From an uncultured Bacteroidales bacterium (GTDB taxonomy: Bacteria > Bacteroidota > Bacteroidia > Bacteroidales > F082): a stretch of 64,000 nucleotides of DNA. Location: positions 1 to 64,000 of the forward strand of contig CAMVCZ010000016.1 in NCBI GenBank assembly GCA_947166105.1, given 5' to 3'. The position numbers were made by a program, and so were the translations under genes. Positions 17,001 through 56,689 of this stretch are shown here, piece after piece (within the stretch, counting starts at the first letter, position 1; the number at the start of each line of letters is the position of its first letter). The notes beneath the pieces were generated by a model, which saw only the letters and a list, made by a program, of their open reading frames with translations, did not search any database and had not been told where the DNA came from.

Positions 17001-18875
17001 ACTGTAAATGCCGCTACAGTTGCTGCGCACCTTGGCGGTGTAAGTCGTTTCAGGATCGAGGTTTTCGAAGGTGTAGGTGGTTTCGTCCACATCAATCGGG
17101 TCTTCATTGTCTAATTGAACCTGCCAAGCGGTGGCATCGGAAGTCCAGCTGATGGTGGCTTCGTGGGCGGTCACGTCGGAAACGGCCAGGCCAGTAGGTT
17201 TGGCGCAAGCGGGGATGTAGTCGATGCTCACGTTGTCGATGTGCAGGTTGTTGTCAGCATTGCTCACAGTCGATTCACCATAGAAAGCAATGGCGATGCT
17301 CTGTCCGGCATAGCTGCTCAAGTCGAAGGCAACGGCCTCGCCGATAGCGGAGCAGGCGATGTTGTTTAAGACATATTGGGAGCCGGCGTTGTCCCACTGG
17401 CGCAGGATGGTCCAGGTGGCCATGTTGTCGGAGGAAATCAGCACGACGAACTTATCGTCGCTGCCGTTGGTAGCAGGAGTAGGAACATTTGTGCCGCTAT
17501 AGGCGGTCAAAGCCAGTTCGAAGGTAAGCTGCACATTGTTTTCCATCAGGAGGGTCGGGGTAACCAACCAGTATTTGCAGCTGGTGCCATAAAGGTTAAC
17601 CTTGGCATGGTTGTCGAACACACCGTTGCCAGTGCTGAAGTTCCAGCCGCTGGAGGTGGTAGTCAAAGCTGTACCACCCATTACATCGCTCAGCAGGCCA
17701 CTATATTTGGCCCAGCCAGTAGGAGCACTTGTGGTGGCGAAGGCTTCGGTCAGCGGGATGCCGGCAGCCGTGGTGAAGTTGGCCGAAACATAGTTTTCGC
17801 AGTTATAGACCTGCACATTGTAGGTGGTGAGGCCGTCAAGGTTGCTAAGGGCAAGAGTGGGTGTGCCGCTGACGGTTTCAACAATTGCGTTCTCCCAAGC
17901 GTCAGCCGACTTCTTGTATTTCACCGTCCATTCGGTCTCTTGGTAGCCGGCAGTCCAGCTCAATGTGGCCGATTCAGCCGTGATGTCAGAAACCTGCAAG
18001 TTGGTGGGAGCAGCGCAAGGATTGGCCGTGGTGAAGCTCAAAGTCTTCCAGCCGCTGGTGAGGCCGCCGTCGCACTCGCTCTGCACTCTCACTTGGTAGG
18101 CAGTGTTGCTTTCAAGGTCGTTCCAGCCATAGACGGTATCCGTATAATGAGAGATAGAAGGCTCCCAATCGCCGTTGCCTTCTTTGAGTTCGATGTTGTA
18201 AACGCCGCTGCCGCCATCAATGGAGAAGTAGAATGAAGTAGCGGTAGGCTCGTTGTAAGCAATCAAATTGTCAGGCTTGGCGCAGGTCGCACCGCCAGCA
18301 GGAGTGATTACAATCTGGATGTTCGGGCGATTGTTCGTTACAGTCGCAGGCACAGTGCTGGTATCGTAAGCATTGTTGTCGTTGGCGGAGTAGCGGGCCA
18401 TGTTAGTGGCAGAGGTGTAGTACCATGTGCTGCCGTTGTACCAGTAAACATAGCCTTTGTTGACACCAATCAAGAGGTTCGATGTCCCATCGTAGTCGAA
18501 GGGGGTATCGAGAGTGATGGTTGCCCAGCCGGATCCAGTGACGGAAAGCGTTCCGCTGAAGACCTCGTCGGCATCGGCAAGGCTGATACCTGTTGAAAGG
18601 TCTTCGGCATCAACGTTTGCCATGTACACGGTAATCGGGAAATCCTTAGCAGTTGAAACAGCATAATTGAAGCTGATACTGCTGATGGTACCTGCCGTTC
18701 CAATCTCCGTGGCTGTGTAAAGCTGCTCGGTGATGGCGTAGTTGTAGTACGTACCGATTGGAGTGTAGTAGCCCTTAGAGGTGCCGTCTCCAATCTCCAC
18801 AGTCGTCTGTGCGTTTGCTGCCCACGGCACCAACAGGGCCAAGAGCAGCGTCAAAAGTAATGACTTTTTGATCAT
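14043..18875 (-). CDS. Large adhesin-like T9SS protein with fibronectin III, GEVED and cleaved-adhesin domains
   Basis: A 1610-residue secreted protein with signal peptide 1-22. Several fibronectin-type units start with C-A/P-PTxL (CAKPDNL, CAAPTNLQVS, CAKPTGLAVS, CPAPTALAVT, CLAPTNLAIN, CTVPYELM). Between them lie a cleaved-adhesin/jelly-roll domain (about 375-560, motif NNLHIDNVSIDY) and a GEVED domain (about 735-890, YVWVDLDNSLSFEADEVV). The C-terminal 70 residues (LQVVDVMGRILKSE, PGVYMIRLTNG) are a T9SS type A sorting domain. It probably acts as a surface adhesin or scaffold. Terminators lie at both ends, so it is monocistronic. Confidence 0.9.
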   Translation of the reverse strand: MIKKSLLLTLLLALLVPWAANAQTTVEIGDGTSKGYYTPIGTYYNYAITEQLYTATEIGTAGTISSISFNYAVSTAKDFPITVYMANVDAEDLSTGISLADADEVFSGTLSVTGSGWATITLDTPFDYDGTSNLLIGVNKGYVYWYNGSTWYYTSATNMARYSANDNNAYDTSTVPATVTNNRPNIQIVITPAGGATCAKPDNLIAYNEPTATSFYFSIDGGSGVYNIELKEGNGDWEPSISHYTDTVYGWNDLESNTAYQVRVQSECDGGLTSGWKTLSFTTANPCAAPTNLQVSDITAESATLSWTAGYQETEWTVKYKKSADAWENAIVETVSGTPTLALSNLDGLTTYNVQVYNCENYVSANFTTAAGIPLTEAFATTSAPTGWAKYSGLLSDVMGGTALTTTSSGWNFSTGNGVFDNHAKVNLYGTSCKYWLVTPTLLMENNVQLTFELALTAYSGTNVPTPATNGSDDKFVVLISSDNMATWTILRQWDNAGSQYVLNNIACSAIGEAVAFDLSSYAGQSIAIAFYGESTVSNADNNLHIDNVSIDYIPACAKPTGLAVSDVTAHEATISWTSDATAWQVQLDNEDPIDVDETTYTFENLDPETTYTAKVRSNCSGIYSEWTTAVSFTTTIACPAPTALAVTPNAYTATFTWESFASEWEVAYATDATADPAEFIVGTVVDTASYTVNDLDLGDYYFWVRANCGELDGNSTWAGPASVHIGYCVPAPTSVDGNGISNVTFGMGDYIVNNETPKATYTDYTSQIGAVQAGVEATIAITFKTGYTYNTYVWVDLDNSLSFEADEVVCYGESTNTNPTTLTLNFTIPADQTLGDFRLRIGSADSGLGSNPANANPCYTSSYGCFQDYTLRVLEAPSCLAPTNLAINYTGGLTAEVTWEGEAETYNIDVNGEVTEGVTSPYVLDSLELATTYAVKVQADCGDDGTSEWSNPVSFTTDLCMPENQCAIYYSFTDQYDDSWNGAYINIVDATTQEVLYELTMPNVTGPYEGSFNVCDGREIQFVWVSGSYPRECGYVFTHFGTTILEKATNSAAPDAGVFFTYEVNCTPDPCTVPYELMSSNVSYNQATLSWTGYSDTYYVQYRTAELRSGDWTEVTANTTTLDLTGLVSETTYEWQVRTDCDSIVEWSEIATFTTQELIVWNNPNDWTVPEEYTDVTIPENTTVLIPDGYIAYADTITFGEGASILIENGGQLYHSNEVPVTMQLAYDPNYTSSKDGEPEYGEYRLIAAPVNPGVPVSSTGLVPDTLDPNYRYVDLYYFDQNVGELVWINYKNPANDFDSLFIKKGYLYSNAQNVLGIFAGNTLPTSVDVEEPLVYNPDVLWAGWNLVGNPFTCMAFVNRPYYKINGDGDAIAQAEGNSLEVFEGVFVYTEQADDTVTFFTSGAIGSDPGELKMLTLNLNDGRSLIDRAIVRFDEGHQLLKLQMGSSTKVYIPKDDSDYAIVSSDDTGEMPVSFKAENDGTYTMNFSSENVNFSYLHLIDNKTGDDIDLLETPSYTFTARTNDYTNRFKLVFALGTTGIEESFAFFNNGNLVISNEGNATLQVVDVMGRILKSENINGSASVKVDAAPGVYMIRLTNGSNVKVQKVVVE

Positions 18876-18980
18876 AATGATTTGAATTTTAGTTAATTAT
18901 AAATGGATTATTGTTTGTGTTTTCTTTTTTATTGTTTGTTTTAAGCGCGTAAAGATAGATAAAAATTCAATAAGATGTCA

Positions 18981-19019
18981 AAAAAAAACAAAAAAAGCGG
19001 TGCTTTTTGAGGCACCGCT
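18981..19019 (-). terminator. Intrinsic terminator behind the orphan tail
   Basis: GCGGTGC (18997-19003) and GCACCGC (19012-19018), extended by A/T pairs, are followed on the minus strand by long T-runs (18981-18996). It terminates transcription coming from the small remnant at 19042-19152. Confidence 0.85.
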
Positions 19020-19041
19020 TTTCTTACTTGCAGGGGGAAGA

Positions 19042-19152
19042 TTATTCCTCTCTGCGCTTCTTGCCTACCATGTAGGCTGCGCCAAGGCCGAGCAACACGG
19101 CTATGCCGCTGCCCAACGGGGCGGCGGGTTCCTGACTTCGACAATGCTTCAC
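19042..19152 (-). pseudogene. Orphan C-terminal anchor tail (second copy of the type)
   Basis: A 36-residue reading frame from a possible GTG: after SQEPAAPLGSGIAVLLGLG it ends in AAYMVGKKRREE. It is the same anchor type as the remnant at 5968-6093 (APLGxGIxxLL, basic end). No signal peptide or body precedes it, but its terminator is intact. It is probably the leftover 3' end of a deleted secreted-protein gene; a real mini-protein of about 36 residues is the alternative. Confidence 0.5.
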
Positions 19153-48835: not shown

Positions 48836-51800
48836 TTATTCTTGTAATTGAATTTTCATTGCATAGTTGAAAGGCTTGTCTGGAACATAGCGGTCTGGTT
48901 CTGTACCAACAGTGAACAAAACTTTTGTTCCAACTTCATAATGAGAAGCACGTTTGTCCCGAATAATAAGTTGGTAAGGAGGTTCATTAAAGAACACACA
49001 CTTATATCCTTTATCATTAATGCCTATCTCTCCTTCATAAATCTTACCTACAACAAGATTGCTTCTTTTTTTTCTTTTCAGTTCTTCATATTCCAAAATG
49101 GAATTTGCCAATCCCCATGAATACCAATATATTGGTGCAAAGCGATAAAACCGCCCTTTTGTTGTTATTTTTTCTGCCATAATGCCATTGGCAAATATCA
49201 AATTTTTCAAGTCACCTGGAGTTTTTGTCACTTTACTTTCTCCTATAGTAAGAATTCTATTAAAAGTGGTATTAATCAATTCTTCAAATAATGATTCATT
49301 TAAGGCTTTGTATCTGAACTTTTCGCCGCCTGATGACCTAATAACTTCTTTGAATCTCAAGAGATCTTTACTAAATTCATCTTGAGTTAAGTCGTTAAAG
49401 TATTGTTCTGTAGTTTTTTCCCTTACTTCTTTTGAAGCATATATTGAAGGCGATATAATAACCTTTACATGAGGATCTGTTTTTTTCAAAGCTTCTACAA
49501 CTGCATTTCCATCTAAAGTATTGATGAATGGGCGGAGGCTGATTGCAGAGTTGTCAGCATTAGCCAACTCTTTGCTGAAATACTCCCATGGGTTTCCCAA
49601 GTAACTATCGCCAACTCTTACTTGCTTTCCAAAAAACGCAGAAATAATGGGGCTCATCTCCGCAATTTGCATAGACTTAAATTGGTTTTTGGGGAAGCGT
49701 TCAAAAGAGGTCTTTGTGTTTCTAATATAACTTTCATTGATTCCTATTTTTTCCGCTATAGCCCAATATGCTTCACTTGCTTTTTTATCCGAAAAAATCA
49801 ATTTGAAGAAGAATCCAAATACTTCGCCAATAGTCCATTCGATTTCGATAATATTATTGCCAAGACGAGCTGTGTTTGTCCCCTCAATTTGCTTAAACAA
49901 ATCTGTTCTAACAAAAATTTTAGGAACAATGTTTGAAAATGATTCATAGTTATTTCGCCAATAATTAATTAATGGAGAAACCGCTTTGTTCCAATGTAAA
50001 GGATTAATACCAGTATCTAATCTGTCGTACAACACAAATAGTGTTTTATTGTGTTGATTTAAATACTGATTTAATCGAATAATATCCTTTTCGATGATGA
50101 TTTGAGTGCGAATGTTTTGTTTTATCAAAGTATCAATTCTCAAGTAAGCCGTTTTTGTATTTCCATAACCACTTAATGGTAACACATATTCTTTCAATTC
50201 GCTTTCATTTTTGATACTTTCAAATTCGGGGTCAAGAAGAAGAGCATTCCATGTATAAATCTGCCAAAACACATTAAAATAATACTCTGGTTCTTCTATT
50301 TGACTATATAAAATGTTATTAAAAACCAATTCTGTATCTGTAGGAGGTAAAACATTGATAAAAATTGTATCTTTTGTATGATCTTCTTCAATGCCACCCC
50401 ATTTTTGTATATTTTCAGATATCACACTATTAGTTAGTGCCCTATAGAGATATGTTTTCCCCGTGCCTTTATAGCCTCTAATAATAAACTTTTTCACATC
50501 ATAGAGTTGCTTCATGCACTCTCTATAATAAAACTGCTCCTCTACAATATCTGTTTCTTCTGCAAAGTTTTTTACATTAGCTAATACTCTTTGCAAATGC
50601 CTTAATATGATATTTCTTAATTGCAAAGAAGTAGTTCCATAAGAATATGGTTCGTTTATTAGTTTGCAGGTTGTTGTGTCTGTTTGATTTGTACTTGAAG
50701 ATTCGATGCTTTCTTCTTCAACAATAGAATCATCCTCTTGAATAGGAAAGATTTGTTGGTCAATTTTATCAAATAATTCATTGTAATCAGGATTGTGTCT
50801 ATTTTTCACAAGATCAACAAATGCAACATCGGATCTATCATCTCCCTCGCCAATTCTTTCCAGCATGTTCATTCGTCTTAAATAAGAGAAGGAGGGATAG
50901 TCTTTTTCTTCATTACCAATGTCATCAATAAATTCTCTAATTCGTTTCGTTTTAGTTTCCAGCCATTCTTCTTCAACATGTTCAGGCAAAATTGAAAATA
51001 CTAATTGCAGATTAAACCTATTTCTTTTCTTGTAATACTCTTTCAACAAGTTAATCAAACCTGGTTCGGTTTGCCTGCTAAAGCCAAAAAAGCCAACAAC
51101 ACACGAAGACAAAAATAGGGCAGCGGTACCAAAAATGTCGTTAAAGCCTGTTCTTGAATCTAATAATATTATATCAGGCTTAATGTCTTCATTAATCTTG
51201 TTAAAGAGCAATGAAAAACAATTGACCAAATTCTGAATGTTGGATATGTTTATCTTTGCGAGACCTTCCAAATAATCATTTCTATCTGTGTCGCCACCAA
51301 ATGATGAATCTCTATATCCCTCGTTTAAGTTTCCCGCAGGAACTATCCAAATGTTTTCAAGGTTTTCATTTGCAAATTGATTGTCATTTTCTTTTCCAAC
51401 ATTTATGATATAATCATCAAGATTAAGTGTTTCAGGCTTTTTTGTAAATTGGGCATCACAAAAAAACTCAACTAATCCGTTCTTTCTTCCGCTTTTCAAT
51501 CCTTTATGTTCTTCTAAATCAAAGAAATTGAGGTATCCAGGAGCCTCAAGGTCGCAATCGATAATAACCACTCGTTTTTTCTTGTTATCATCATCATTAA
51601 CAGCAAGATGTAATGCATACGCCACCATAGTTGTCGTTCTTCCCATTCCTCCCTTGTAACTATAGAATGTAACAATTGGAGCTTTGCTAATTGATGTATT
51701 ATTAGGTATGAGTGCATGATTATCTAACAAGGAGTCAAAACGATACCGCGGTCCCCAATCAATCACTTCGCTATTTGCTGTAAAAATGTTAGAATAATAC

Positions 51801-52099
51801 GGGTCTTCTTGTGCATCTTTCTCACCAACAATAATGAATTTGATTCTATTGTCATTAGCATTAGGATAATCCATGTTGGAACTAATATCTCCGTTTTCAA
51901 TAGACAATCCAGGTGCAGCATTCTCTGTCCTCAACGTATTAAAGAATTCTTTTTCGTAGTCCATAGCTACCTCTATTCGTGAAGTGGCAATGAATACATC
52001 AATTTGAAAATTAATGCGAATATAGATCTTAAACTGTTTTTCCCCTTTGTCTTCCAAATAGGTTTTGATGCGTTTTGCGATGTCAGAAATATGTATCAT
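48836..52099 (-). CDS. Giant protein with two P-loop NTPase domains (ParA-like plus second ATPase)
   Basis: 1087 residues. Residues 1-140 are an unrecognised N-terminal module. Residues 143-350 are a ParA/MinD-like NTPase: deviant Walker A YKGGMGRTT (148-156), VVIIDCDLEAPG (about 177-188), Walker B DIILLDSRTG (309-318). An acidic, serine-rich linker (455-480) leads to a second P-loop, GYKGTGKTY (542-550), with a likely Walker B at LFVLYDRLDTG. The rest is unrecognised and ends in beta-rich sequence. KGGxGR-type NTPases fused to other P-loops occur in predicted bacterial conflict systems. The start overlaps the stop of the small upstream gene by 4 bases. The region is much more AT-rich than the housekeeping genes, a sign of transfer. 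Confidence 0.8.
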   Translation of the reverse strand: MIHISDIAKRIKTYLEDKGEKQFKIYIRINFQIDVFIATSRIEVAMDYEKEFFNTLRTENAAPGLSIENGDISSNMDYPNANDNRIKFIIVGEKDAQEDPYYSNIFTANSEVIDWGPRYRFDSLLDNHALIPNNTSISKAPIVTFYSYKGGMGRTTTMVAYALHLAVNDDDNKKKRVVIIDCDLEAPGYLNFFDLEEHKGLKSGRKNGLVEFFCDAQFTKKPETLNLDDYIINVGKENDNQFANENLENIWIVPAGNLNEGYRDSSFGGDTDRNDYLEGLAKINISNIQNLVNCFSLLFNKINEDIKPDIILLDSRTGFNDIFGTAALFLSSCVVGFFGFSRQTEPGLINLLKEYYKKRNRFNLQLVFSILPEHVEEEWLETKTKRIREFIDDIGNEEKDYPSFSYLRRMNMLERIGEGDDRSDVAFVDLVKNRHNPDYNELFDKIDQQIFPIQEDDSIVEEESIESSSTNQTDTTTCKLINEPYSYGTTSLQLRNIILRHLQRVLANVKNFAEETDIVEEQFYYRECMKQLYDVKKFIIRGYKGTGKTYLYRALTNSVISENIQKWGGIEEDHTKDTIFINVLPPTDTELVFNNILYSQIEEPEYYFNVFWQIYTWNALLLDPEFESIKNESELKEYVLPLSGYGNTKTAYLRIDTLIKQNIRTQIIIEKDIIRLNQYLNQHNKTLFVLYDRLDTGINPLHWNKAVSPLINYWRNNYESFSNIVPKIFVRTDLFKQIEGTNTARLGNNIIEIEWTIGEVFGFFFKLIFSDKKASEAYWAIAEKIGINESYIRNTKTSFERFPKNQFKSMQIAEMSPIISAFFGKQVRVGDSYLGNPWEYFSKELANADNSAISLRPFINTLDGNAVVEALKKTDPHVKVIISPSIYASKEVREKTTEQYFNDLTQDEFSKDLLRFKEVIRSSGGEKFRYKALNESLFEELINTTFNRILTIGESKVTKTPGDLKNLIFANGIMAEKITTKGRFYRFAPIYWYSWGLANSILEYEELKRKKRSNLVVGKIYEGEIGINDKGYKCVFFNEPPYQLIIRDKRASHYEVGTKVLFTVGTEPDRYVPDKPFNYAMKIQLQE

Positions 52100-52738: not shown

Positions 52739-52845
52739 TAGTTTTTTTTCATAAACGTGAAACGATATAGACAATATTGATTCAGCAAGACAGAAATACA
52801 ATAATAAGGATTGGACATAAATTACTTAAATGCAATAAGTTAAAT

Positions 52846-52865
52846 AGTTCCCTACAATTGGAACC
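52846..52865. promoter_or_regulatory. Operator-like inverted repeat, copy 1
   Basis: AGTTCC, 8 bases, GGAACC; one base off the GGTTCC-N8-GGAACC pattern. Its end is 43 bases before the -7 box at 52909. Confidence 0.6.
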
Positions 52866-52908
52866 ATTTAATCAATCCTTACATATTTTCCAATCGAAAA
52901 AAAGGTAG

Positions 52909-52916
52909 TATTTTTG
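52909..52916 (+). promoter_or_regulatory. -7 box of the first DUF1232 gene
   Basis: TATTTTTG. The transcript would carry a leader of about 135 bases, which holds the structured element at 52965-53027. Confidence 0.65.
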
Positions 52917-52964
52917 CACCGTCATTAACGACAAAGACAATAAATAAAAAGTAAAAATGAAAAA

Positions 52965-53027
52965 CCTCCAAGTAACGTTGCCATAGGAGGGGCGGAAGGC
53001 AAAAGACCTTCTGTTAGAAATGGCAAC
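52965..53027 (+). ncRNA. Structured leader RNA, copy 1 (pseudoknot-like)
   Basis: Stem A: CCTCC (52965-52969) with GGAGG (52986-52990). Its loop contains GTTGCCAT (52977-52984), which is the exact complement of ATGGCAAC (53020-53027) further on. Between them is stem B, GAAGG/CCTTC (52995-52999 and 53007-53011) with loop CAAAAGA. The loop-to-downstream pairing makes a pseudoknot or a switch between two folds. The downstream arm ends 31 bases before the DUF1232 start. Copy 2 at 53628 has the same layout. Confidence 0.6.
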
Positions 53028-53057
53028 AAATTGTCTAACCTTTAAATCTTCTGCATT

Positions 53058-53462
53058 ATGAGAGATTATAAGGACTTTGTCGTTGATGGCACTGCTGACG
53101 GTGCTGAGTATGCTAACCCCGCCAACTACAGCGACGACGCTTTTTGGGCCAAGGTGAAACGCTTCGCCAAGAAGGCCGGAGCTAAGGTGATTTACTTCGC
53201 CTTACTGCTGTACTACGCGCTATCCTCTCCGAAGACGCCGAAGTGGGCGAAGACGGTGATCATAAGCGCCCTCGCTTATTTTATCTGCCCCATCGACCTC
53301 ATCCCCGACACCATACCCATTGTTGGGTTCACCGACGACCTTGCCGCCCTTGCTGCAGCATTGAAGGCTGTGGATACTTGCATCACTTCTGATGTCAAGG
53401 CAAACGCCAAGGCGAAGCTATGCGAGTGGTTCGGCTACGTGGACGAGGCTGAATTTGCCTAA
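53058..53462 (+). CDS. DUF1232 membrane protein (YkvA-like), first copy
   Basis: 134 residues. N-terminal polar part, then the DUF1232 signature (SSPKTPKWAKTVIISALAYF, then CPIDLIPDTIPIVGFTDDLA). One or two hydrophobic segments suggest inner-membrane location. The family is widespread and its role unknown; some members sit in stress or toxin contexts. A paralogue follows 260 bases downstream. Confidence 0.88.
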   Translation: MRDYKDFVVDGTADGAEYANPANYSDDAFWAKVKRFAKKAGAKVIYFALLLYYALSSPKTPKWAKTVIISALAYFICPIDLIPDTIPIVGFTDDLAALAAALKAVDTCITSDVKANAKAKLCEWFGYVDEAEFA

Positions 53463-53484
53463 GGACTTTGGAAGCGGTTGGGAT

Positions 53485-53504
53485 GGTTCCAGGTTATGGG
53501 AACC
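53485..53504. promoter_or_regulatory. Operator-like inverted repeat, copy 2
   Basis: GGTTCC, 8 bases, GGAACC, located 22 bases after the first DUF1232 gene. Unlike copies 1 and 3, no TAnnTTTG box stands about 43 bases downstream. Confidence 0.65.
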
Positions 53505-53627
53505 ATTCCAGCTGGCCAAAGTAGGCAACATGGCATGGTTCTTGAAAAGTCCCCAACGACATAGACACATGGTCAGCATGGAAAGCCATTTGAACGTCAC
53601 ATTATATACAAAAGTAAAAAGAAGAAT

Positions 53628-53697
53628 CGCCACCGGAAAGGTCTCCACGGTTGGCGGAGGTGGAAGGCAAAGAACTTCAACCTCAGTAGGTGAGACC
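53628..53697 (+). ncRNA. Structured leader RNA, copy 2 (pseudoknot-like)
   Basis: Stem A: CGCCACCG (53628-53635) with CGGTTGGCG (53648-53656, one bulged T). Its loop has GGTCTCCAC (53640-53648), complementary to GTGAGACC (53690-53697) except for one bulge. Stem B: GAAG/CTTC (53663-53666 and 53675-53678). The single-stranded core GGAGG, GGAAGGCAAA and the CTTC arm are shared with copy 1, while the pairing arms differ in sequence, so the pairings appear kept by compensating changes. It ends 27 bases before the next start. Confidence 0.6.
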
Positions 53698-53723
53698 AGA
53701 TGTTGGACCAAATTCTTATCACT

Positions 53724-54131
53724 ATGACGGATTTTAATTCTACTCCCCGTGACGTTAATGGCACCGCCAATGGTGCTGATTGTGAAACCTCCAGCTACAG
53801 CGAGAGCGAGCTTTTGGCCAAACTGAAGCGCTATGCCAAGAAGGCTGGCGCGAAGTTGGTCTTGCACGTCTTGAAGCTGCGTTACGCTTTCTGGTCGCCA
53901 AACACCCCTGCGTGGGCGAAGGCGATTATCGTCAGCGCGCTAGTCTACTTCATCTGCCCCGTGGATGCCATCCCCGACACCATCCCTGTCATCGGGTTCA
54001 GCGACGACCTGACAGCCGTCGCTGCCGCTGTCAATGCGGTGCGGGATAATCTCACCCCCGAGGTTGTTGCCAAGGCGAAGGCCAAGCACCGCGAGTGGTT
54101 CGGTGAGGTGGTCGACACGGAGGTGGCATGA
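53724..54131 (+). CDS. DUF1232 membrane protein (YkvA-like), second copy
   Basis: 135 residues, paralogue of 53058-53462 (SPNTPAWAKAIIVSALVYFI, then CPVDAIPDTIPVIGFSDDLT). The start at 53724 (MTDFNSTPRDVNGT) matches the other copy's N-terminus (MRDYKDFVVDGT), so an earlier in-frame start is rejected. The gene, its leader and its operator-like repeat look like one duplicated unit. Confidence 0.87.
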   Translation: MTDFNSTPRDVNGTANGADCETSSYSESELLAKLKRYAKKAGAKLVLHVLKLRYAFWSPNTPAWAKAIIVSALVYFICPVDAIPDTIPVIGFSDDLTAVAAAVNAVRDNLTPEVVAKAKAKHREWFGEVVDTEVA

Positions 54132-54150
54132 GGTTCGCAAAGGCTGGAAT

Positions 54151-54170
54151 GGTTCCTGCACATTGGAACC
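54151..54170. promoter_or_regulatory. Operator-like inverted repeat, copy 3
   Basis: GGTTCC, 8 bases, GGAACC. Its end is 42 bases before the -7 box at 54213, nearly the same spacing as copy 1 (43). Confidence 0.65.
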
Positions 54171-54212
54171 ATTTTAGCCGAGGCATCGCGAAAAAGCTAA
54201 TGTAAATTGTCC

Positions 54213-54220
54213 TACTTTTG
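54213..54220 (+). promoter_or_regulatory. -7 box before two small reading frames
   Basis: TACTTTTG matches TAnnTTTG and lies 15 bases before the ATG at 54236. Confidence 0.6.
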
Positions 54221-54235
54221 CATCGCAAAAATAAA

Positions 54236-54346
54236 ATGAATATGAAAAGAATCATCTATCGGAACGGACGCCTCGAAAGATGTGATGTGAAGCCTTGCCT
54301 TCAGTCGGAAAGCGCGACCGGTTATTGTCAAATCCTTAATTCTTAA
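54236..54346 (+). CDS. Small 36-residue reading frame
   Basis: MNMKRIIYRNGRLERCDVKP, then CLQSESATGYCQILNS. Basic N-terminus, three cysteines, no domain. Supported only by the promoter and position; 5 bases before the next small gene. It could be a peptide or just part of a leader. Confidence 0.35.
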   Translation: MNMKRIIYRNGRLERCDVKPCLQSESATGYCQILNS

Positions 54347-54351
54347 GTGGA

Positions 54352-54468
54352 ATGGATGACAGTTTTTTCAAGCACATCGGTGATGTCCTGAGAGAGGGCA
54401 AGCCCGTTGCCGTCATCGGCGTTATTGCAGTGGTTGCCATTTGGGCCATTCGCGATTTGAGCAAGTGA
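54352..54468 (+). CDS. Small 38-residue membrane peptide
   Basis: MDDSFFKHIGDVLREGKP is followed by a hydrophobic helix VAVIGVIAVVAIWAI and a short polar end. A single-pass inner-membrane peptide is likely. It has an ATG start, a good hydrophobic profile, and a hairpin downstream at 54485-54512. Confidence 0.5.
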   Translation: MDDSFFKHIGDVLREGKPVAVIGVIAVVAIWAIRDLSK

Positions 54469-54484
54469 TTGCTCTAGGAGTCTT

Positions 54485-54512
54485 GTGGTTGGGGAATCAA
54501 ATCTCCAACCAC
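54485..54512 (+). other. 11-bp hairpin after the small membrane peptide gene
   Basis: GTGGTTGGGGA and TCTCCAACCAC pair with one G-U around a 6-base loop. There is no T-run, so it may be a weak terminator or an mRNA stabiliser. Confidence 0.5.
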
Positions 54513-54559
54513 ACTAGTATCAGTCCCGCCTAAAACATACAAATAACAAAAACCTTACA

Positions 54560-54772
54560 ATGCTCAGAGGAACAACCATGTTCAGATGCACAAAGTGCAA
54601 GAATGTCTTCAAAGGCCCAGATTCCGAATGGAATGCCACGGTTTTTTCTGCGCCATGCGAATGCCCGCAATGCGAAAGCTATCGCACTATACCACTATGG
54701 GCATTTTGGCAATTACCTGTCTATAAGAAAATTTGGATCTCCATCGAAGAAGCCCAAAACCCACAGCCATGA
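54560..54772 (+). CDS. Small zinc-ribbon-like protein
   Basis: 70 residues with two cysteine pairs, CTKC (residues 10-13) and CECPQC (33-38), as in zinc ribbons. No other domain. A second ATG at 54578 (MFRCTKCKNVF) would remove six residues and may be the real start. Orphan gene in the accessory region. Confidence 0.6.
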   Translation: MLRGTTMFRCTKCKNVFKGPDSEWNATVFSAPCECPQCESYRTIPLWAFWQLPVYKKIWISIEEAQNPQP

Positions 54773-54846
54773 CTTCCTTGGACATCTCTTAATTTACAAT
54801 CAATCAAACTGCAAGTTAAAGACAACATACCAAAACGCTAACAACT

Positions 54847-55380
54847 ATGCCACATCTTCAATACATCAAAGCCCGTGAGGAGGCCATCAGTAACCTCGGA
54901 AACAATTTCATCTTTGAAGTGTCGGCTGAACCCATTGCACCGAAGGACAGATTAGAGAATTGGGAACTGAGTCGATTCTTCTTTGCAAACAATCCCTGGT
55001 GGGCTGAAACTGGCGAGCCTGAGGATGTCCCAGAAATCATCAGGGATTATGCCATCGACGAGCTGCGGAAACAACTCCCCCAAGGCTATTCCATCGAAAA
55101 CGACACCATCATCAACCCCTGCAACAACGACTACTTGAAAGAGACTGTCAAACGCCTTCAAGACCTCTTGAAGCATCCCGACAAAATCACCTCATATCCC
55201 TATCCCTTGGGCTGGTGGAAAACGGAAGTGTGCCAGTTTCACGACACGCTGGTTTGTTTCCGCAGAGACGACGACAAGGAACTATTCACCCTTCACGAGT
55301 TTCTGCTTTACATCATTCCGCATCTTGGCGAACGCTACGAGAAGCTCTATATCGGAGGGATATTCAGTTATTGCCATTGA
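54847..55380 (+). CDS. Hypothetical 177-residue protein
   Basis: A soluble protein without a recognised domain. Aromatic-rich segments (FFFANNPWWAETGEPEDVPE, YPYPLGWWKTEVCQF) and a C-terminal LHEFLLYIIPHLGERY. No signal peptide. It lacks a clear promoter of its own and may be cotranscribed with the small zinc-ribbon gene. Confidence 0.6.
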   Translation: MPHLQYIKAREEAISNLGNNFIFEVSAEPIAPKDRLENWELSRFFFANNPWWAETGEPEDVPEIIRDYAIDELRKQLPQGYSIENDTIINPCNNDYLKETVKRLQDLLKHPDKITSYPYPLGWWKTEVCQFHDTLVCFRRDDDKELFTLHEFLLYIIPHLGERYEKLYIGGIFSYCH

Positions 55381-55398
55381 TAGAAAGCAGGACAACCC

Positions 55399-55428
55399 TT
55401 GCCGTTTTCTGGAAAATGTGTATTTTTG
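55399..55428 (+). promoter_or_regulatory. Promoter of the 55453 gene
   Basis: TTG at 55399-55401, 19 bases, TATTTTTG at 55421-55428. The -33 surroundings (CCCTTGCCGT) equal those of promoter copy 1 at 47700, but the 29-base element is absent. Confidence 0.75.
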
Positions 55429-55452
55429 CAGCAAATAAAAACAGCTATCATA

Positions 55453-55665
55453 ATGGATACAGCAGTTTTGAACCCAACACAAATGCACCTGTTGAAACTC
55501 TTTGCCTTCAACAACAGCGAGGATTATGCCCGTGAGATACAGATGGTGCTCATGCGCTATTTCCAGCAGAAACTTGACGAGGAGTCAGACCGACTTTGGG
55601 AGGAAGGCGTTTTGAATCAAGAGAAGTTGGACGAAATTCGCCATCTGGATCTTCACGTTTACTAA
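55453..55665 (+). CDS. Antitoxin-like 70-residue protein
   Basis: MDTAVLNPTQMHLLKLFAFN, then a helical, acidic C-terminal part (RYFQQKLDEESDRLWEEGVL, DEIRHLDLHVY). Short proteins with this layout are frequent in Bacteroidota and often sit beside toxin-type genes. No partner gene is next to it here, so it may be an orphan. The antitoxin role is inferred. Confidence 0.5.
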   Translation: MDTAVLNPTQMHLLKLFAFNNSEDYAREIQMVLMRYFQQKLDEESDRLWEEGVLNQEKLDEIRHLDLHVY

Positions 55666-55727
55666 AGCGATGCTGTTTCGCATGTTGAAATCATCAAATT
55701 GGACGAAATCATTCGGATGATTTAATC

Positions 55728-55787
55728 CTATTTTCCACTATAATTCACTACATTCCATTGCGCATTTGCGGAGGTGCGATAGTTTTG
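55728..55787 (+). promoter_or_regulatory. Shared promoter module, copy 2
   Basis: The 29-base element at 55728-55756 is identical to copy 1. TTG at 55758-55760, 19 bases, then TAGTTTTG at 55780-55787. Drives the gene at 55816. Confidence 0.8.
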
Positions 55788-55815
55788 CAGCCGGCATCAG
55801 AAAAACATTGTTGGA

Positions 55816-56586
55816 ATGAAAAACAAACACCCCTTCTGGACAAAACTCGATTGGCGTGGCCCTCGACCGCTCACGCTCCGCGAACTCATCATGAAAAGCA
55901 ACTTCCAGACCATGATGAAGTATATCATCTCCTTTGACAAGAAGATGACCAACCAGGGCAATCACTTCTACCGTGCCTGCGAATGTATCCGAGACATGAA
56001 GGTAAAGGCGCATAGCGAGGATTACATCTTGGCAGAATATGACTCCGAGTATAATGAGCCTTACATCGGTGTTCTGGAGGGAGTGAGTTGGCACGAGTGG
56101 TTAGGCTATCCCGTGAAGAGAGCCAAAGAACTGCATTGCACTGATACAAAGCTGGCCGCCATTTGTCTTTGGCATCTTACTTTCTACGGTTTTACGCCAA
56201 AGGAGCAGAAAGAAGAAGCAGAACGCTGTTTTGAGAGGGAGGAAAGGGAACGTCGCAACGACGAGATTTACTTGGCCGACGATTTGTATGACGATGAATA
56301 CGTCAAGGAAGCGGCTTGGAGTGGCAGGACGAGGATACAGGACGAGGTTTTGCAAAGGCTGTTCACTCCAGAAGAAATCATCGAAATCAAGCGAATCCGC
56401 AAGGAAAAGCTGGATGAAGAAAACGCAAGGTATGATGCAGCGGAAGCGGAAGAAAGACAGCAGTTAGAGCAAGAAGCGGCCTTGAAATTGGAATTGAGGA
56501 AGAAGGCCGAGCAAGAGAAGCGGGAAGAATGGTATCGCAAACGCAGACAAAGCAGATGGAAGAATCGAAGAAAGAAACGCCGTTGA
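55816..56586 (+). CDS. Hypothetical 256-residue protein, DUF6557-like
   Basis: The first 130 residues (LTLRELIMKSNFQTMMKYI, SWHEWLGYPVKRAKEL, AAICLWHLTFYGFTPKEQ) resemble small Bacteroidota proteins of the DUF6557 type, function unknown. The rest is a long, highly charged helix or coiled coil (KRIRKEKLDEENARYDAAEA, then Q/E/K-rich) that ends in a very basic KNRRKKRR tail which could bind nucleic acid. Expressed from promoter module copy 2. Confidence 0.6.
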   Translation: MKNKHPFWTKLDWRGPRPLTLRELIMKSNFQTMMKYIISFDKKMTNQGNHFYRACECIRDMKVKAHSEDYILAEYDSEYNEPYIGVLEGVSWHEWLGYPVKRAKELHCTDTKLAAICLWHLTFYGFTPKEQKEEAERCFEREERERRNDEIYLADDLYDDEYVKEAAWSGRTRIQDEVLQRLFTPEEIIEIKRIRKEKLDEENARYDAAEAEERQQLEQEAALKLELRKKAEQEKREEWYRKRRQSRWKNRRKKRR

Positions 56587-56689
56587 TGATATGATTAACA
56601 CGAATGCCCATGAATTATTCACGAATTGTTCAGAAATGGTTTTTTGAAAAATTTGTGGCAAATTTCTGGCAATTCGTGTAGAAAACCTA

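Follow-up and report, generated by a model that had tools for sequence, protein, structure and literature searches.

The DUF1232 locus

The genome that carries the window (the whole stretch of 64,000 nucleotides analysed here) amounts to 3.52 Mb in 100 contigs and encodes in the window a tandem pair of DUF1232 proteins that are 56% identical, both matching Pfam PF06803 above its gathering cut-off of 23. DUF1232 is the sole Pfam match of these proteins and neither has an NCBIfam or PADLOC match, such that no RNA-binding domain is seen in them. The start of copy 2 was placed at 53724 by alignment with copy 1, with an in-frame ATG also present upstream at 53700. A leader element of about 65–70 nt lies 5′ of each copy, and the features outside the leaders are as follows.

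52897–52921, forward strand: promoter-like stretch of copy 1, TAnnTTTG-type, TATTTTTGCACC (lax DNA search of congeners)
53058–53462, forward strand: DUF1232 gene, copy 1, 134 aa (PF06803, E 1.2e-14, 54.1 bits)
53484–53505, forward strand: 3′ hairpin TGGTTCC..GGAACCA after copy 1, without a T tail (pattern search; none called by a terminator scan)
53724–54131, forward strand: DUF1232 gene, copy 2 (PF06803, E 1.9e-13, 50.3 bits, read from 53700)
54150–54171, forward strand: 3′ hairpin TGGTTCC..GGAACCA after copy 2 (pattern search)

TAnnTTTG is the promoter consensus of Bacteroidota. When 99 congeners were searched at the DNA level under lax settings (E up to 10), most of the matches listed lay within 52890–52964, many of them at 52897–52921 and few in the leader, covering the TAnnTTTG-type stretch and the A-rich stretch behind it. 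A sigma-70-type scan called no promoter at this stretch. Upstream of copy 2 only a decayed remnant of a TAnnTTTG-like stretch was seen by eye and, because such letters are absent there, copy 2 may be transcribed by read-through from copy 1.

This genome contains three exact instances of the hairpin TGGTTCC..GGAACCA, of which two lie 3′ of the DUF1232 copies. By eye, a GGTTC/GAACC-type hairpin without a T tail follows five complete DUF1232 genes, with or without a knot leader, in the window and at two related loci described below (after 2768 and after 3405 in L060, below 1498 in L004). A GTTCC..GGAAC hairpin also lies 5′ of copy 1 (52806–52881) within a longer inverted repeat, AAGGATTG..CAATCCTT, and may be what remains of a lost DUF1232 gene, because a DUF1232 gene followed by such a hairpin occupies that place in L060. 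Integron attC sites are a conceivable identity of the 3′ hairpins.

The DUF1232 genes are followed at 54200–56600 by small peptides, a zinc-ribbon-like protein of 70–77 aa and a protein of 250–256 aa (DUF6557-like in the window), with the same gene order seen by eye downstream of DUF1232 in L060 (3480–4900). On the reverse strand, 48836–52099 encodes a 1087-aa protein with a KGGVGR-type AAA ATPase match (NF047398, 117 bits, cut-off 90), a Sll1717-like P-loop part below cut-off and a match to the PADLOC candidate PDC-M28B (E 1.2e-22), making it a candidate defence gene adjoining the DUF1232 cluster.

Architecture of the leaders

In both leaders a segment of the loop of hairpin P1 pairs with a downstream strand (PK), with a second hairpin, P2, between them. 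This plan, together with its coordinates, had been given in a preliminary description of the sequence and was confirmed when the pairs of both copies were verified base by base. The fold predicted from the letters is a three-stemmed H-type (HLout) pseudoknot, an arrangement present in four of the five leaders considered below, L004 being without P2. The elements are listed here, the P1 3′ strands having been placed by base-by-base pairing and by the strict descriptor described below.

52965–52969, forward strand: leader 1, P1 5′ strand CCTCC, pairing with 52986–52990 (5/5)
52977–52984, forward strand: leader 1, PK 5′ strand GTTGCCAT inside the P1 loop, pairing with 53020–53027 (8/8)
52986–52990, forward strand: leader 1, P1 3′ strand GGAGG
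52991–53015, forward strand: leader 1, P2 hairpin with loop CAAAAGA (52991–52999/53007–53015, 9/9 pairs, three of them G-U)
53020–53027, forward strand: leader 1, PK 3′ strand ATGGCAAC, ending 30 nt before the ATG
53628–53635, forward strand: leader 2, P1 5′ strand CGCCACCG, 8 pairs with 53648–53656 and one bulge
53640–53645, forward strand: leader 2, PK 5′ strand GGTCTC, 6/6 contiguous pairs with 53692–53697
53648–53656, forward strand: leader 2, P1 3′ strand CGGTTGGCG, with one bulged T
53657–53684, forward strand: leader 2, P2 hairpin (53657–53666/53675–53684, 9 pairs as 5 + 4 bp, one mismatch)
53692–53697, forward strand: leader 2, PK 3′ strand GAGACC, ending 26 nt before the ATG at 53724

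Some details of the preliminary description had to be revised. Its long-range arms hold in copy 1 (8/8), but in copy 2 the proposed arms of nine and eight letters need a bulge and run into P1, leaving six contiguous pairs. The core that it took to be single-stranded is largely helical in this model: GGAGG forms the P1 3′ strand in copy 1 (52986–52990) and the end of P1 with the P2 5′ strand in copy 2, GGAAGG is a helix strand, and GGAAGGCAAA corresponds to the P2 5′ strand plus loop. The last of these is common to both copies as claimed, but L060 has GGAGACCAAA in its place, and L086 and L004 have other letters still.

RNAfold, which handles nested folds and no pseudoknots, returned PK with P2 for copy 1 and P1 with P2 for copy 2 (z-scores -1.4 and -2.3, respectively), and nested folding by itself would not have picked out the two leaders. 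Across the five leaders the descriptor gave a P1 of 5–12 bp, a PK of 6–8 bp, an L1 of 3–7 nt and an L2 of 0–2 nt. Because L1 and L2 are short, we infer that the P1 and PK helices can lie stacked on each other in the manner of classical H-type knots. L3 ranges from 8 nt (L004) to 68 nt (L086), contains P2, a variable hairpin, in four leaders and, by eye, carries an A-rich CAAA word in all five. PK ends 30, 26, 27, 27 and 27 nt before the ATG, while L3 varies over 8–68 nt and the PK 3′ strands read ATGGCAAC, GAGACC, GGCAAC (twice) and TAGCGGA.

No expression platform common to the five leaders was found. An alternative hairpin, GGCAA-CAA-TTGTC, over the PK 3′ strand was seen by eye in copy 1, L060 and L086 only and was dropped. 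The start codon can be placed inside a hairpin of CCUU..AAGG with AAUC..GAUU in copy 1 (53039–53073), in L060 (2984–3016) and likewise in L086, and inside a different hairpin in copy 2, in all four with a stability no better than that of many shuffles; the start region of L004 has none. No tandem RNA repeats were found at the leaders and by eye no open frame through the knot is common to them, a nine-codon frame at 52957 of copy 1 being missing from L060.

Related leaders and their distribution

A scan for DUF1232 in one genome per species yielded 46 loci, the Bacteroidales loci being inspected by eye and the others via the descriptor. Three, all in related Bacteroidales bins, have a leader of the same plan: L060 in RGIG7852 (the G078 locus), L086 in RGIG7974, and L061 in RUG13948 (also listed as L004 and G028). 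Adding the pair in the window brings the total to five leaders, from four species. The L060 and L086 leaders can be aligned with copies 1 and 2, and those of copy 1, L060 and L086 are close and share the same PK letters. The L004 leader is not alignable and, as it has no P2 and is missed by the covariance model R1, it was counted on its gene, promoter-like start, topology and spacing; used as a DNA query against the 99 genomes it retrieved, besides its own locus, two short matches (23 and 24 bases). P1 and PK are kept in L060, L086 and L004 despite changed letters. The DUF1232 gene of RGIG7974 loses homology past residue 75, near the contig end (L086, 3225–3358), as though an insertion or a misjoin had broken it.

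Other DUF1232 genes are without such a leader, including the third one of this genome (L031), the close homologues L005/L062, L035 and L036 and, by eye, more distant Bacteroidales genes. A DUF1232 protein at E ≤ 1e-15 is encoded in 44 of the 99 congeners; among mobile records such a protein was found on 1 phage and 11 plasmid records, and a scan of viral contigs with the DUF1232 alignment gave no relative.

The search for further copies proposed in the preliminary description was made with R1. Among 99 congeners a match at E < 1e-10 was obtained in two, this genome and G078 (the L060 locus). In a set of 393 genomes drawn from the order, none but this one reached E ≤ 0.01; both runs used stricter filters, with 41 first-look candidates per genome for the congeners and, among the matches listed, 10 per genome for the order. 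Weaker congener matches ranged from E 0.03 to 3, with some match at E ≤ 3 in 40 of the 99 genomes. Of these weak loci 18 were re-scored together with L061, and in eight of the best ten alignments the match was clearest at a AATTGTTTAACNTTAAAT-like tail before the ATG, L133 and L140 having their clearest match outside it; none was counted. The AATTGTTTAACNTTAAAT-like tail is no stock element of this genome, with 4 matches (one being leader 1) against 11 for a reversed control pattern.

Rfam 15 gave no match in the window at gathering score, and the two matches in the window obtained at E up to 10 (E 2.6 and 9.1) do not lie on a leader. In the open-licence literature no report linking DUF1232 with a riboswitch was found, YkvA/DUF1232 papers describe no leader as judged by their titles, and, for Bacteroidota or rumen bacteria, the papers listed on RNA motifs or pseudoknotted leaders mention nothing on this element in titles or the opening lines of abstracts. 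The leader RNA is narrowly distributed and without an Rfam entry, and is of a known kind, the pseudoknotted 5′ leader.

Pair retention, covariation and controls

The alignment A4 (copy 1, copy 2, L060 and L086) was built with MAFFT without structure. In it 90.4% of the 52 P1 and PK cells are paired, a score lowered by the misalignment of copy 2 P1 by two columns, compared with 36.0–54.2% in slid controls. Four pairs, two in P1 and two in PK, are altered on both sides (3/500 shuffles as high), and the count of further pair types was unremarkable (134/500 shuffles). Between L060 and L086, P1 pairs 4, 7 and 8 differ and are all still paired, and the top pairs of P2 change from GG/CC in copy 1 to CC/GG in L060. 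Broken pairings in relatives, which the preliminary description had named as the finding that would speak against it, were looked for in L060 and L086, and each keeps all checked P1 and PK pairs (9/9 and 6/6).

When arms were swapped among the five leaders the true P1 partners were the best of 120 permutations and for PK two of 120 shared the best place, the tie being L060 and L086 with identical letters; the test is biased because the arms had been picked for pairing. When the entire loop was allowed to pair with the entire downstream tail, the true partners were equalled or bettered by 8 of 120 permutations.

For a strict descriptor (P1 ≥5 bp and no more than one bulge, L1 3–8, L2 0–3, PK at least 6 bp, L3 7–80), 200 dinucleotide shuffles were made per region, the limits having been fixed after the leaders had been seen. 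All five leaders stood at 0/200 shuffles, L004 giving 1/200 in a second run. The window supplied 52 control upstream regions besides the leaders, of which one stood at 0/200 and another at 1/200; the former is a rho-independent terminator with an A-rich loop that pairs with the T tail of the same terminator. A 279.8-kb portion of this genome comprised 100 genes with free upstream DNA, and 3 of the 98 non-leader regions stood at 0/200, with knots 53, 54 and 102 nt from the start, and a fourth region, a long inverted repeat, at 1/200 at 30 nt; in this run only regions scoring below -20 were shuffled and the gene finder used ATG 53700 for copy 2. A looser descriptor was discarded because 8 of the 52 window controls also reached ≤7/200. 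The terminator with the A-rich loop, at 18875–19055 upstream of a 1610-aa gene on the reverse strand, mimics an H-type pseudoknot and is a trap for descriptor searches.

Among ten leaderless DUF1232 upstream regions, L078 stood at 0/200 and the upstream paralogue of L060 at 1/200, their pairings sitting by eye wholly or mostly within the preceding coding sequence. A wider set of 101 DUF1232 loci was reduced by 14 without a recognised ORF (including L086, where the gene is cut) and 13 duplicates to 74 regions. Six of the 74 stood at 0/200, namely L034 (the L060 leader), L010, L027, L069, L078 and L079, with L004 and L029 at 1/200; the last five of the six were rejected as leaders, since by eye they are a terminator, coding sequence or long inverted repeats. 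A distance of 20–35 nt to the start was found for two of the six, L034 (27) and L079 (35, terminator-like).

The view in the preliminary description that structure has been under selection is supported by covariation and by the three additional leaders, homologous or similarly built, in a set of only five sequences. As a structure the leader is, on this comparative evidence, well supported.

Function of the leaders

The leaders combine possible pairings, their retention through sequence change and a near-fixed distance to the ATG, and look like a control element and not a product of chance. The knot would sit within the mRNA 5′ leader. The footprint of the 30S subunit reaches about 20 nt upstream of the start, such that a knot ending 26–30 nt before the AUG would lie just outside it, folded at the upstream edge of the bound subunit, where the ribosome, protein S1 or a cognate protein could dock on it (standby) or be blocked by it. 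The near-constant distance to the AUG, with most else variable, implicates the initiating ribosome. A protein- or ribosome-binding RNA is the preferred interpretation; metabolite sensing is unsupported. More specifically, we tentatively favour, at a little short of even confidence, a conserved, lineage-restricted, cis-acting pseudoknot leader that affects how translation of a DUF1232 membrane-protein gene is initiated. That it represents an undescribed Bacteroidales-specific class of pseudoknot leaders controlling Shine-Dalgarno (SD)-independent translation, with the knot 26–30 nt before the AUG presented to the 30S subunit or to the DUF1232 protein, is possible but rather doubtful.

Several known RNAs offer comparisons. 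The strand order of the preQ1-II riboswitch is the same as in the DUF1232 leaders, and the fold of the SAM-II riboswitch is likewise H-type. PreQ1-II (Rfam RF01054) is a 5′-leader HLout pseudoknot in which an additional hairpin, P4, lies next to the stacked helices (PMC11625349). It belongs to another phylum and another gene; the DUF1232 leaders have no Rfam match and no known ligand, and in none of the five is an SD adjoining the start used as the 3′ arm of the pseudoknot, the PK 3′ strand being no SD and ending 26–30 nt before the ATG. Since Bacteroidia ribosomes are reported not to recognise SD sequences (PMC9976891) and the PK 3′ strand is no SD either, SD masking of the preQ1-II type cannot simply apply. 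SAM-II of metA in Sinorhizobium is similar as a 5′-leader RNA acting on translation at a distance (PMC9373788) but has a known ligand and known SD sequestration, and no Rfam match links it to the DUF1232 leaders. In the tisB mRNA of E. coli a 5′-leader pseudoknot has been proposed as required for 30S and S1 binding, yet the gene is unrelated, and that knot is reported to lie near the mRNA 5′ end, with the RBS 100 nt downstream of a standby region that is single-stranded (PMC7708055). A docking or blocking element for translation is preferred because of the AUG spacing and because knots of such use are known, as in tisB; a standby-type translation element is proposed for the DUF1232 leaders from position only.

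The main rivals to docking or blocking are passive protection and autoregulation by the DUF1232 protein. A passive structural element would protect the 5′ part of the mRNA from decay or free the initiation region of upstream RNA, with no factor and no switch. Letters that are free to change so long as the fold remains, a P2 that is dispensable (L004), an L3 that can expand to 68 nt (L086) and the narrow distribution are all what it would predict; the 26–30 nt gap to the ATG and the short L1 and L2, kept in five of five leaders, would be unnecessary for mere protection, leaving this reading unlikely, if still a serious contender. Were the leader bound, and translation repressed, by its own DUF1232 protein or by another product of the cluster, the copies would have diverged with their proteins, in keeping with paralogous leaders that differ in letters and keep the plan, with the position of all five before DUF1232 genes (all found by looking there) and with the R1 search of whole genomes, which gave no other gene at E ≤ 0.01. 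Autoregulation is nevertheless improbable given proteins in which no RNA-binding domain is seen and the other DUF1232 genes examined that are without a leader.

The riboswitch-like role raised in the preliminary description gained nothing beyond the shape. An aptamer pseudoknot, as in preQ1-II or SAM-II, would fit the general topology of preQ1-II, a pseudoknot with an embedded hairpin (PMC11625349), and the CAAA word seen by eye in every L3. Against it, few unpaired bases are invariant and they form no block, and the absence of an Rfam riboswitch match up to E 10, of a common expression platform and of a ligand-linked gene, with leaders in four species only and a gene without an assigned function, renders a small-molecule riboswitch quite improbable. 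Chance, meaning ordinary leaders with accidentally strong hairpins and complementary words, could draw on the loose-descriptor scores of 8/52 controls, on the post hoc strict limits and on the existence of controls at 0/200; it is disfavoured, indeed very improbable, in the face of five of five leaders at 0/200 against 1/52 and 3/98 controls, the P1 and PK covariation and the similar ATG gap in diverged leaders. A type III toxin-antitoxin system or a frameshift pseudoknot is scarcely conceivable. ToxI is reported to be a pseudoknot RNA co-transcribed with a small gene, and here too a pseudoknot RNA lies directly 5′ of a small gene, but the leaders have no tandem pseudoknot repeats before an endoribonuclease gene, the gene is DUF1232 with no endoribonuclease or other toxin family matched, and the lack, by eye, of a shared open frame through the knot speaks against frameshifting.

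Significance

Start-site choice without SD pairing is only partly understood in Bacteroidota, and a leader with a kept fold and a kept distance to the AUG under changing letters, for which we prefer a docking or blocking role in translation, is a test object for structure-guided initiation. The leader would also offer a way into how DUF1232 genes, which form a family without an assigned function, are regulated.
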